DNA of 64,000 nucleotides from Domibacillus sp. DTU_2020_1001157_1_SI_ALB_TIR_016 (lineage in GTDB: Bacteria; Bacillota; Bacilli; Bacillales; Domibacillaceae). Below are positions 4,909 through 8,178 of this stretch, piece after piece (the first letter of the stretch is position 1; the number at the start of each line of letters is the position of its first letter). A program made the translations under genes and the position numbers. The stretch spans positions 2,604,001 to 2,668,000 of the forward strand of contig NZ_CP135439.1 in assembly GCF_032341995.1 (NCBI RefSeq). The letters run 5' to 3'. The notes below the pieces were generated by a model that saw only the letters and a program-made list of their open reading frames with translations, had not been told where the DNA came from and did no database searches.

Positions 4909-5727
4909 ATGGAAAAGCATTTAATCGTGTTAGACCTCGATGGTACGTTATTAACGGATCAAAAAACCATTTCCCCCCGCACAAAACGCACCCTTCAAAA
5001 AGCGATGGAGCACGGGCATGAAGTAATGATTGCCACAGGCCGCCCGTTCCGCTCAAGCGCTCCTTATTATGCGGAGCTCGGATTAACAACACCAATTGTC
5101 AATTTTAACGGCGCCTTTGTTCATCATCCCGGCAATCAAAAATGGGGCTTCTTTCACGAACCGATGGAGTTAAAAACCGCCATTGATATCGTTGAAGCAT
5201 GCCATGATTTTGACTTTTACAATATTATTGCAGAAGTGCTCGATAACGTTTATTTTCATTATCATGATGAAAAGCTTATTGATGTTTTTAACATGGGCAA
5301 TCCTGCAGTCACAACAGGTGACCTGCGCCAAAAGCTGACCGATCATCCAACAAGCATGCTGATTCATGCAACAGAAGAGCAGGTACCGGCTATCCGCCGC
5401 CATTTAAGCGATGTGCACGCAGAAGTGATTGACCACCGCCGCTGGGCCGCTCCGTGGCATGTGATTGAAATTGTCAAAAGCGGCTTAAGCAAAGCAGTCG
5501 GCTTAAAGCGTGTATCAGACTGGATCGGCATCCCGCCGGACCGGATTATTGCATTTGGTGATGAAGATAATGATCTTGAGATGATTGATTACGCCGGCAC
5601 AGGTGTAGCGATGAGCAACGGTATTGATGCCTTGAAATCGATCGCCAATGACATTACCGCTTCAAACGAAGAAGACGGCATTGCGGTTTTCCTGGAAGAG
5701 CGCTTATCCTTAAAAACGTTCGCATAA
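4909..5727 (+). CDS. yitU: YitU, Cof-type HAD phosphatase
   Basis: This 272-residue protein is a Cof-family HAD hydrolase. Motif I DLDGTL has the nucleophile D9 and acid/base D11. Motif II is ATGRP, the conserved lysine is in VKSGLSKA, and motif IV is GDEDNDLEM. A C2-type cap lies between motifs II and III. B. subtilis YitU is one of the phosphatases that dephosphorylate the pyrimidine intermediate of riboflavin synthesis, and this protein is similar over its full length. Activity on other sugar phosphates is also usual for the family. The gene ends in a terminator shared with the GH13 gene. Confidence 0.85.
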   Translation: MEKHLIVLDLDGTLLTDQKTISPRTKRTLQKAMEHGHEVMIATGRPFRSSAPYYAELGLTTPIVNFNGAFVHHPGNQKWGFFHEPMELKTAIDIVEACHDFDFYNIIAEVLDNVYFHYHDEKLIDVFNMGNPAVTTGDLRQKLTDHPTSMLIHATEEQVPAIRRHLSDVHAEVIDHRRWAAPWHVIEIVKSGLSKAVGLKRVSDWIGIPPDRIIAFGDEDNDLEMIDYAGTGVAMSNGIDALKSIANDITASNEEDGIAVFLEERLSLKTFA

Positions 5728-5732
5728 AAAAA

Positions 5733-5767
5733 GGCCTCTCAGCAAATTTGCTGAGAGGCCTTTTTTT
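5733..5767. terminator. Bidirectional terminator between yitU and GH13 gene
   Basis: A perfect hairpin (AGGCCTCTCAGCAAA and its complement) is flanked by A-rich and T-rich runs on both strands. The - strand gene ends within the T-run. Confidence 0.85.
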
Positions 5768-7262
5768 ACGATTGAGCTGCCCTTTTGCCGCGCTTCCATA
5801 CCACATAAAGAAACAAAACAAAGATAATCCAGACCGCTGACATAGCCGCAATAAAGGCGTAATTTATGCCGGTTTTCTCCGCCAGTGCATAAATTTCCGC
5901 TTCCTCACGGTCAAGAATAATGGTAAATTCCCCATCTGCCGCACGCGACATGTCACCGGCAAGCAATCCTCTCAGCTCTTTGTTCTCATCCAGTTTAGAA
6001 GCTGGAATCGCAATGCTTTGTGTTTCGCCTGTGTTATTGATTGCCACCACAACTCTTTCATCCTCGTATTGCCGCTTAAACACCGTCATGCCGTTCCGAT
6101 TAAAAATCGGCTCATAGGAACCACGTCTAAGCGCCGGGAGTTTCTGGCGTAAGGCTGCGATCTGCTTGATATAATCCACCAGCTCCTGATCGGTACGGAA
6201 ATTCATCAGTCCGTGCGCGTCCGGGCCGGTTTCTCCGTTTTGCGCGATTTCCGATCCATAAAAAACTGCTGGAGTTCCAGGAGATGTGTACAAATACGTA
6301 AGTGCCATCCGCCAGCGTGTGCCCGGAAACATGTTTTCTTCCGCCATATCCCTTGTAAATCGATCTGTTACGACAGAGTCCGTTAAATGAACCGTTTCCA
6401 ACGGATGCTCCAGTACGTTTTCTTCCTGGAGAAGGAGCTCTTCTACCACATTCGAAGAGCGGTCTACTGTCGCAAACTGCTTGCGCAACGGCTCCTGCGT
6501 CCAGGAAGAAGTCACCGCATCAAGCCCGGCTTTTTCATAAGCGGCGGCTCCCTGTATGGTGGTTTCCGTCATTTCTCCTATTAAGTGCAAATTAGGCATA
6601 GCTTCATGAAAAGCATTCCAAAAAGCAGGCTTTGCTGCGGAAGCATTGCTGAAAAAATACCCATCAATACCGGTCCGGCCGGCCAGCTTCACAGCTGCTT
6701 CTACGAGCGCCGCCTGTACATCTGGATTCTCTGTGTTTAAAAGAGCCATTTCGCCAAGCCAGTCCGGCTTCTGCAAAACAGAGACATTTGTAAACCAATT
6801 CTCTTTGCCGGCTTCACTTAGCCATACGTGCTTTGTGCTTACACGTACAGCCGGAAAATCCACTAAAACACGAATATTTTGTTTATGTGCACTGTCAACG
6901 AGTTCTTTTAACTGCTGCTCATTGCCAAATTGCGTGTTTAGCTTTGTGTAGTCCGTTATGCTGTAGCCATGGTAAGCACCTGCTTCGTTTTCAAACACAG
7001 GTGAAATCACGATTGACGTCATGCCCAGCCCTTTTACATAATCAAGCTGATCTTGAATTCCTTTAAAGTCACCGCCCTGGTAAGCAGATGCATCATCATT
7101 ATTCGTTTGTTTATCATTTGAACGATCTCCGTTCATAAACCGGTCCGTCATTAAAAAATACATCGTTTCATCCTGCCAGCCTTCCTTCTTTTCTTCGGCA
7201 GATACCATACCTCCAGATAAAAGAAGAAGCGGAATGATAAGTGAAAGAAATCGTTTTCTCAC
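5766..7262 (-). CDS. Membrane-anchored GH13 alpha-amylase-family protein, probable pseudoenzyme
   Basis: The 498-residue protein has a signal peptide (about 1-22), a GH13 TIM barrel with a C-terminal beta domain, and a membrane helix near residues 471-493 followed by basic residues, so it would sit on the outer face of the membrane. Region I reads DFPAVRVSTKH where active relatives have an Asn-His pair. Region II reads GIDGYFFSNA: the invariant Arg is F203 and the nucleophile Asp is S205. Region III keeps the acid/base Glu (E230 in LIGE). Region IV reads DSVVTDRFTR where NHD is usual, so the second Asp is V298. The frame is intact and secretion signals are kept. The GTG at 7262 follows AGGGGGA. 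A binding or scaffolding role is inferred; starch hydrolysis is unlikely. Confidence 0.8.
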   Translation of the reverse strand: MRKRFLSLIIPLLLLSGGMVSAEEKKEGWQDETMYFLMTDRFMNGDRSNDKQTNNDDASAYQGGDFKGIQDQLDYVKGLGMTSIVISPVFENEAGAYHGYSITDYTKLNTQFGNEQQLKELVDSAHKQNIRVLVDFPAVRVSTKHVWLSEAGKENWFTNVSVLQKPDWLGEMALLNTENPDVQAALVEAAVKLAGRTGIDGYFFSNASAAKPAFWNAFHEAMPNLHLIGEMTETTIQGAAAYEKAGLDAVTSSWTQEPLRKQFATVDRSSNVVEELLLQEENVLEHPLETVHLTDSVVTDRFTRDMAEENMFPGTRWRMALTYLYTSPGTPAVFYGSEIAQNGETGPDAHGLMNFRTDQELVDYIKQIAALRQKLPALRRGSYEPIFNRNGMTVFKRQYEDERVVVAINNTGETQSIAIPASKLDENKELRGLLAGDMSRAADGEFTIILDREEAEIYALAEKTGINYAFIAAMSAVWIIFVLFLYVVWKRGKRAAQS

Positions 7263-7327: not shown

Positions 7328-7495
7328 TCAATGAAAGCAGAGATTGTTCAAGAAAACGACACGGTTCCATACCCGCTGTTTATGAAATAAACGCGAGAAT
7401 TTCTTTTTCTTAAAACAGGAAACTATATATACAGCTAAAGCAAGCCCGCCTGGCCCCGTTCCAACAACTGCGATTCTTTTTGGTATAAACCTCAT
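7328..7495 (-). pseudogene. 5' remnant of a FAD/NAD-dependent oxidoreductase (CrtN-like)
   Basis: The first residues, MRFIPKRIAVVGTGPGGLAL, are a dinucleotide-binding beta-alpha-beta start with GxGxxG, as in phytoene desaturase-type amine oxidases, which begin at their amino end in this way. After about 22 residues the similarity stops, the sequence becomes basic and unstructured, and the frame ends after 55 residues. I read this as the 5' stub of a decayed or deleted gene, truncated next to the GH13 gene. A chance match is possible because the preserved segment is short. Confidence 0.4.
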
Positions 7496-7573: not shown

Positions 7574-7612
7574 AAAAAATAACCGTCGCTCCTTTACGGG
7601 AATGACGGTTAT
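7574..7612 (-). terminator. Terminator of the 48-residue membrane protein gene
   Basis: ATAACCGTC pairs with GACGGTTAT across a 16-base loop, followed on the - strand by six T residues. The stem includes the stop codon of the small gene. Confidence 0.75.
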
Positions 7613-7755
7613 CGGCGAGGTGAATCCTCTTTTTCTTCTATTGGCACTAATTCACTTGCTTCCTGCGGGCCGGCTTTTTTCATATAAACTGAAACAGTCT
7701 GCACTGACACAAAAAACGAAACAAAAACAAGAATCCATAAAATCACGGGAAACAC
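7609..7755 (-). CDS. Small single-pass membrane protein, 48 residues, unrecognised
   Basis: A GTG start follows AAAGGAGG at about six bases. The first 24 residues are one hydrophobic helix starting MFPVILWILVFVSFFVSVQT; the rest is a short acidic, soluble tail ending in two arginines. A TATAAT -10 box lies 26 bases upstream (7776-7781) and a hairpin terminator overlaps the stop, so the gene has all the signals of a real transcription unit despite its size. It follows yisL in the same direction, after the yisL terminator. I do not recognise the family; a membrane location is the only supported statement. Confidence 0.65.
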   Translation of the reverse strand: MFPVILWILVFVSFFVSVQTVSVYMKKAGPQEASELVPIEEKEDSPRR

Positions 7756-7830: not shown

Positions 7831-8178
7831 TTAAGCAATGCCTGGGAGGGCAAAACCTAAAATAACCGTCAGAACAAGCACAATAAACGCGCCGGCCAAA
7901 ACACCGCCGTTTTTTTTGCCTTTTTTCTTCCGTACGAGCGTCATTTCCATTAATCCGATCGTGACTATGCCCAAAAGCATTTTGATGCCATACAGGGCTG
8001 GATTCAAGCTGTCGAACGTGGTAAATAGCGCAAAGCCGGTAATTAAAATCAGCACATAAAACAAGCGAAGCCCCATATGTACACCGGTTGATGGCTTTCT
8101 TACTGCGATCAAAAACAGTACGAGCGCAATGACCCACGTTGTAATATGTACGTGTGTGGATTGTGTTAAAAAGTCCAT
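7831..8178 (-). CDS. yisL: YisL family membrane protein (DUF1516)
   Basis: The 115-residue protein has four predicted membrane helices. It shares with B. subtilis YisL the start HVHITTWVIAL and the internal segment KMLLGIVTIGLMEM, followed by a run of lysines. The function of DUF1516 proteins is unknown. AAGGAGGGG precedes the ATG. The gene follows yisK by 37 bases on the same strand, as in B. subtilis, so they are probably co-transcribed; a terminator closes the unit. Confidence 0.9.
   Translation of the reverse strand: MDFLTQSTHVHITTWVIALVLFLIAVRKPSTGVHMGLRLFYVLILITGFALFTTFDSLNPALYGIKMLLGIVTIGLMEMTLVRKKKGKKNGGVLAGAFIVLVLTVILGFALPGIA

Follow-up and report, generated by a model that had tools for sequence, protein, structure and literature searches.

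The gene at 5766..7262 on the minus strand of the window, by which we mean the whole 64,000-nucleotide stretch of Domibacillus sp. DTU_2020_1001157_1_SI_ALB_TIR_016 analyzed here (contig NZ_CP135439.1), encodes a protein that derives from the GH13_45 amylases by place and similarity and is dead by its residues. It is a single-copy gene within its family, and, like other copies with a broken catalytic triad, it is very probably kept by purifying selection. The loss of the triad goes together with the absence of the malEFG operon from the locus, and constraint on the broken copies is split by domain, the catalytic barrel being relaxed while domain C and the C-terminal membrane anchor are not detectably so. 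The reading that we favor, at a probability of about 0.5, is that the ancestral amylase had a second, non-catalytic job at its membrane-proximal end and was kept for it once catalysis became dispensable.

The initial annotation had described an open frame of 498 codons, which was borne out (GTG start at 7262, stop ending at 5766), and the loss of the nucleophile Asp, the transition-state Asp, the region II Arg, and both substrate His, in which it was right according to a homologue alignment of the four GH13 regions. In the numbering of the window protein (P0001), region I (residues 132 to 142; 6837..6869, minus strand like all protein segments below) has D...V-R for the D135...N139-H140 of active enzymes, and region II (residues 198 to 208; 6639..6671) has Phe and Ser for R203 and the nucleophile D205. 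Region III (residues 225 to 233; 6564..6590) retains E230, while D295-N296-H297-D298 of region IV (residues 292 to 302; 6357..6389) reads D-S-V-V, with the first Asp retained. The 29 nearest database relatives (P0002 to P0030) all have Ser at position 205 and Tyr or Phe at 203, and none has Asp at 298. The acid/base Glu, which had been annotated as retained, is present in the window protein but is not fixed, having been lost in 5 of these 29 relatives (one Asp, four Gly); it is found in 41 of the 106 copies having at most one triad residue (see below). The next 91 listed relatives include 50 with the full triad, and the remainder are broken in various ways.

The protein nevertheless has the three-domain GH13 fold. 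Pfam matches cover the alpha-amylase catalytic domain (E 1.2e-35) and Alpha-amylase_C_2 (E 1.5e-30), and among sequences with a solved structure the nearest are GH13_45 amylases of Anoxybacillus and Geobacillus (5a2b, 5a2a, and 4e2o; E 1e-106 to 1e-98). A putative export signal (residues 1 to 22; 7197..7262), called from its hydrophobicity and not by a signal-peptide predictor, is followed by the barrel, domain C (residues 381 to 460; 5883..6122), and a hinge and transmembrane anchor with a basic tail (residues 463 to 498; 5769..5876). The export and anchor signals annotated before thus stand at the level of hydropathy, as a hydrophobic N terminus and a C-terminal hydrophobic segment. An in-frame ATG at 7370 would lengthen the open reading frame (ORF) to 534 amino acids (aa). 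Broken copies retain the DRFxNGDxxND...GGD segment (residues 40 to 65; 7068..7145), which we take to be a calcium-site motif of related amylases.

Several sequence marks of GH13_45 are missing. Instead of the complete Asp-Glu-Asp triad of the BaqA type, the window protein has Ser205, Glu230, and Val298; Lys-Leu at 192-193 stands in place of the tryptophan pair (WW in 6 of 23 copies of its family), and Met-Ala-Leu at 172-174 in place of the LPDlx motif of conserved sequence region V (CSR-V), LPD being found in none of the 23 family copies versus 109 of the 110 intact ones. Seven aromatic residues, counted irrespective of the five listed subfamily positions, lie within 465-490, and the 498 residues include no cysteine. 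Because the triad and two listed sequence marks are missing, we call the protein a GH13_45-derived pseudoenzyme and not a GH13_45 amylase, and there is little doubt that it is not a working GH13 hydrolase.

This catalytic loss is not local decay in the genome of the window, since each of the 24 searched genomes of its family holds one copy. Recent decay in a single strain, which the initial annotation had named as evidence that would speak against it, is accordingly not what we found. In one of these genomes (G008) a stop was flagged in the matched stretch, yet an ORF of 520 aa remains. Across the order, 229 of 397 sampled genomes gave a match at E 1e-60, one each except for G146 with two, and 168 gave none; at most three candidates were scored per genome, and scoring more in 79 genomes gave the same result. 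Of 121 proteins, 27 entered the alignment for the locus search and 82 the one for the model. We read 257 loci, consisting of 80 from a genome-contig scan (the best 80 of 543), 140 regions from 139 further genomes, and short loci from the family and order searches. After 29 were dropped for having identical last 300 residues, 228 distinct proteins remained, a set that is not random, as it contains the best-scoring 80 plus all 79 weaker-scoring and 60 better-scoring genomes of the order scan. All three triad residues were present in 110 copies (intact), two in 12 (part-broken), one in 50, and none in 56 (together the 106 broken copies), so that about half of this non-random sample (118 of 228) lacks part or all of the triad. 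By a hydropathy criterion only, the C-terminal hydrophobic segment is present in all 118 broken or part-broken and all 110 intact copies. A length of at least 430 aa was kept by 116 of the 118, and disruption is about as frequent in intact copies (1 of 110). One copy with an intact triad (L041 and L211) has lost both substrate His (Ser140, Lys297), possibly an early stage of decay.

The state of the triad follows the genomic context closely. At intact copies the usual order is cyclomaltodextrinase (opposite strand), malE, malF, malG, amylase, and lacI, and for 102 of 110 the closest marker gene that lies in the same orientation and no more than 300 bases upstream is malG. Broken copies have addA or addB, yisK, yisL, DUF2777, and asnO on one side and SDR, yajQ, cvfB, degV, yitT, HAD, mip18, and clpB on the other (the Pfam families were computed; some of the B. 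subtilis-type names are presumptive). Markers flank the gene on both sides in 70 of 89 broken, 10 of 12 part-broken, and 14 of 99 intact loci; the intact loci had right-side markers only in 56 of 99 cases and neither side in 23, either because the operon fills much of the fetched stretch or because the gene lies elsewhere. Among 200 loci with long flanks, malEFG adjoins 97 intact copies and is missing at 2 (L093 and L226), versus 5 broken or part-broken copies with it (L104, L139, L241, L250, and L254) and 96 without (Fisher p 4e-48, not corrected for kinship). The corresponding counts in the 140-region subset, where both triad states occur within nine families, were 66, 2, 4, and 68.

Kinship was taken into account with trees built by FastTree, in which long branches may be misplaced. 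On the neighbor-gene tree (154 loci with two or more genes) a minimum of 19 changes in triad state was needed. When 13 independent pairs, all on supported branches, were compared with the operon, the mean of 200 pairings was 11.1 in agreement and 0.0 in disagreement (median p 0.001). The tree of the protein itself without the cleft required at least 14 changes and provided 7 supported pairs (median p 0.03, range 0.016 to 0.125). When only losses were allowed, with Exiguobacterium as outgroup, the two trees gave 26 and 14.

A few loci stand apart. L226 and L093, with full catalytic residues and no adjoining malEFG, are candidates for a step between operon loss and catalytic loss. In L139, whose amylase is part-broken, malG and lacI each fall into two frames, so the operon there may be decaying. 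A replacement amylase was considered as the reason for broken copies beside malEFG and rejected: a second GH13 gene lies downstream in L241, L250, and L254 but also in the intact L088, L212, and L257, and L104 has none.

The ratio of nonsynonymous to synonymous substitution rates (dN/dS), a comparison proposed by the initial annotation, was computed with a Nei-Gojobori script for pairs of at least 72 percent identity and dS of 0.1 to 1.6. Over all pairs the median was 0.116 in 81 broken versus 0.058 in 98 intact. With disjoint pairs, in which each protein is used once, it was 0.113 in broken copies (range 0.050 to 0.271, n=25), indicating purifying selection, and 0.066 in intact ones (range 0.031 to 0.130, n=31). 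The difference was concentrated in the cleft half of the barrel (residues 135 to 300), with 0.184 in broken versus 0.049 in intact copies, a ratio of 3.74 (bootstrap 2.89 to 4.92). Ratios were 2.11 (1.64 to 2.81) for residues 25 to 134 (0.108 versus 0.051) and 1.51 (1.06 to 2.22) for residues 301 to 380 (0.074 versus 0.049), while domain C (0.099 versus 0.111; ratio 0.89, 0.66 to 1.20) and the hinge and anchor (0.127 versus 0.138; ratio 0.92, 0.57 to 1.55) were equally constrained in both.

The membrane-proximal end also carries a signature of nine positions spread over domain C, the hinge, and the anchor (N410, R431, G432, R440, R452, E453, G465, N467, and F481), at least seven of which match in 104 of 106 broken, 12 of 12 part-broken, and 85 of 110 intact copies. 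Those intact copies that match at no more than four positions belong to Fictibacillus, Exiguobacterium, and a few others, and in seven pairs of such low-signature copies the cleft is constrained (0.051) and the anchor loose (0.319). Against only the 24 intact pairs that keep the signature, the domain C ratio was 1.00 (0.73 to 1.36). Two genomes hold both kinds of gene. Ornithinibacillus contaminans has an intact copy matching 3 of the 9 positions next to operon genes (L100), and on a different contig, at the yisL place, a copy without any triad residue that matches 8 of 9 (L116); in G146, the intact L145 (5 of 9) adjoins the operon, and L203 has two triad residues and 7 of 9. Altogether, with a signature chosen after the fact, the cleft and the domain C and anchor unit look like a double dissociation.

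From these results we infer a retained job at the membrane-proximal end. By place and similarity, the gene is the orthologue of the membrane-anchored GH13_45 amylase that lies directly after malEFG in the maltodextrin-uptake operon of other Bacillales. In the window's family the operon genes are missing from this place; hydrolysis would then have lost its value, and the cleft would have decayed, an order of events that goes beyond the computed correlation. The protein would have stayed for a second job needing no catalysis, whose seat would, on balance, be mainly domain C with the short hinge and transmembrane helix. As modeled, these parts would hold the folded barrel right up against the cytoplasmic membrane, on its outer side, and the most likely role would be that of an accessory or scaffold subunit whose contact with a second membrane protein, or with a ligand on the membrane side, is made through this face. 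The GH13-fold heavy chains that serve amino-acid transporters in animals provide the analogy for this proposal, and a membrane protein as the partner is a tentative guess.

Several observations weigh against this reading. Relative to the 24 signature-keeping intact pairs, the anchor ratio rises to 1.37 (0.83 to 2.30), and the rest of the barrel is likewise constrained in broken copies (0.108 and 0.074). The nine positions were picked after viewing the conservation table. A domain C profile of the window's family gave median scores of 112.5 in other broken copies (n=83) versus 142.4 in intact ones (n=110), and the idea that broken copies simply keep domain C better was discarded. Neither a conserved adjacent gene nor a shared promoter pattern, and hence no partner, was found at the examined loci. 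Starch hydrolysis by BmaN1, itself a broken member, is reported in PMC5347038 and PMC11448133. Finally, a MalF-like gene lies elsewhere (E 1e-60) in 31 of 67 broken genomes (the broken, operon-free ones of the 140-region subset minus the two-copy G146) and, at E 1e-40, in 4 of the 24 family genomes, that of the window not among them. Loss of the transporter is therefore not general, and the link, which we consider likely, is between loss of catalysis and the gene's uncoupling from the operon at this locus. The window's genome itself encodes, on its other contig, a cyclomaltodextrinase sharing 57 percent identity with the one of a relative; its MalE-like proteins are all distant (27 percent at best).

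The non-hydrolytic role under selection put forward by the initial annotation agrees with the loss of the hydrolytic residues in a selected protein, but its suggestion of polysaccharide binding or sensing gained no specific support. A dead barrel could hold an alpha-glucan or a wall polymer near the membrane, in the old cleft or on its surface, and the retained fold, the presence of Tyr97-His98 in the window protein, and the old active-site positions of the 12 Domibacillus copies, which are no faster than the barrel outside them (mean identity 0.80 versus 0.75), all fit this, as do families f2 and f23, where these positions are as conserved as the remaining barrel. We regard it as unlikely, because of the nine families with at least three broken copies, six show less similarity at the old active-site positions than over the remaining barrel (e.g., 0.24 versus 0.46 in f7), and the sugar-binding cleft residues are seldom kept (weighted fractions of 0.07 for Trp85, 0.16 for His140, 0.29 for Arg203, and 0.10 for His297) and are replaced differently in different lineages. 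The cleft half is the most relaxed part, whereas the parts held equally in intact and broken copies are domain C and the anchor. These might seem special merely because they never depended on catalysis, the second job being carried by the whole ectodomain. The strong constraint on residues 25 to 134 and 301 to 380 is in line with that view, and a search with domain C and anchor for stand-alone domain C proteins returned only 14 short matches, which may be fragments. However, relaxation upon catalytic loss is found in the barrel only, and the seven low-signature intact pairs show the reverse pattern, which leaves the whole-ectodomain explanation with a rather small share.

It is quite improbable that the window protein still hydrolyzes glucans with an unusual triad of the kind claimed for Priestia megaterium BmaN1. 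Besides the reported activity, L128 shares the Lys and His replacements of BmaN1 and has almost the same tail as the published protein. Nevertheless, replacements at 205 and 298 are of many kinds among broken copies, near relatives of BmaN1 do not keep its residues (position 205 is Thr in L137 and Ala in L173, both have Arg at 298, and in L173 the residue following 205 is Gly), and the window protein carries Ser-Asn at 205-206 together with a Val at 298, with Glu230 gone in some of its nearest relatives. The proposed BmaN1 residues (Lys-Asp and His) occur in L128, L129, L133, and L134, and Thr or Ala with Arg in L137, L173, and L175 of the same genus code; as far as sequences tell, this would call the published catalytic model into question. 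Least probable of all is a relic in slow decay, retained by chance after the operon was lost. The dN/dS of broken copies is about twice that of intact ones, two broken copies fall below 430 aa, and the 168 genomes of the order without a match imply that gene loss does happen. Against this stand the 24 of 24 family genomes retaining the gene, the length of at least 430 aa in nearly all broken copies, with intact ones disrupted about as often, and dN/dS values of 0.05 to 0.27 in all 25 disjoint broken pairs.

Upstream of the pseudoenzyme gene lies a yisL-type gene (DUF1516; 7831..8178, minus strand), and it is between this side and the amylase that intact relatives have malEFG. The downstream flank is a HAD-family hydrolase gene (4909..5727, plus strand). 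We did not take yisL as evidence for a partner: among the 106 broken copies, 43 have it as their closest marker gene on the upstream side, but for 24 of the 43 the distance is at least 300 bases, and some intact copies (L110 and L226) are flanked by yisL too. At 7609-7755 (minus strand), a 48-codon ORF with a GTG start and a good ribosome site encodes one transmembrane helix and an acidic tail. It clusters with ORFs of seven other loci, the eight comprising two Domibacillus and six others, all of the window's family, and it was therefore dismissed as a general partner. A short frame at 7328-7495 (minus strand) starts like a nucleotide-binding Rossmann motif (RIAVVGTGPGGLALAVY) and is perhaps the relic of an oxidoreductase gene. 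Consensus patterns of the cre, sigma-W, sigma-B, and sporulation types upstream of 98 broken orphans, with starts estimated from the alignment, were near or below the shuffle expectation.

GH13_45 has drawn study for its amylases acting on raw starch, and PMC11448133 interprets the conserved segment at its C terminus as a starch-binding motif; to us the segment looks like a membrane anchor under selection even where starch cutting is unlikely. Repeated catalytic loss with unchanged constraint on another domain amounts to a natural experiment separating two jobs of one protein, and this split makes the second job testable by gene removal. Degenerate GH13_45 proteins (the BmaN1 group) are already in print; neither the operon link nor the domain split of constraint was found in the literature searched, which covered few subscription papers. 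Sarian and others (2017; PMC5347038) describe BmaN1 together with a smaller group of sequences in which the entire triad is irregularly substituted, Frima and others (2024; PMC11448133) predict a transmembrane helix in the BmaN1 C terminus and discuss the region as raw-starch binding, PMC12695923 states that the majority of the subfamily lacks complete conserved regions, and PMC11239784 considers that GH13_48 members without catalytic residues may be inactive, citing BmaN1 as an active case.

Compared with the GH13_45 amylases BaqA, ASKA/ADTA, and GTA, the window protein has lost the catalytic triad, the tryptophan pair, and the LPD motif, and its gene lacks the malEFG operon beside it. It resembles the BmaN1 group of P. 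megaterium (L128, L129, L133, and L134) in being a GH13_45 descendant with a broken triad, a retained anchor, and no adjoining malEFG. That group, however, has Lys, Glu, and His where the window protein has Ser, Glu, and Val, with Asp after the Lys where the latter has Asn, and it keeps lacI beside the gene, unlike the window locus. The SLC3 heavy chains rBAT and 4F2hc, described in PMC8537225 as fake or orphan alpha-glucosidases that act as ancillary subunits, similarly carry a GH13-family ectodomain on one transmembrane helix. Their anchor is on the N-terminal side and their link to the partner is covalent, whereas the window protein has a C-terminal anchor, a partner that is only proposed, and no cysteine for an SLC3-type disulfide link to a transporter subunit. 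It is conceivable, though doubtful, that we are looking at a bacterial counterpart of the SLC3 system, an amylase doubling as accessory subunit of a membrane complex, which would have shed catalysis at least 14 times while keeping the accessory job in domain C and anchor, let go of the opposite half in Fictibacillus and Exiguobacterium, and split its jobs over two genes in two genomes.
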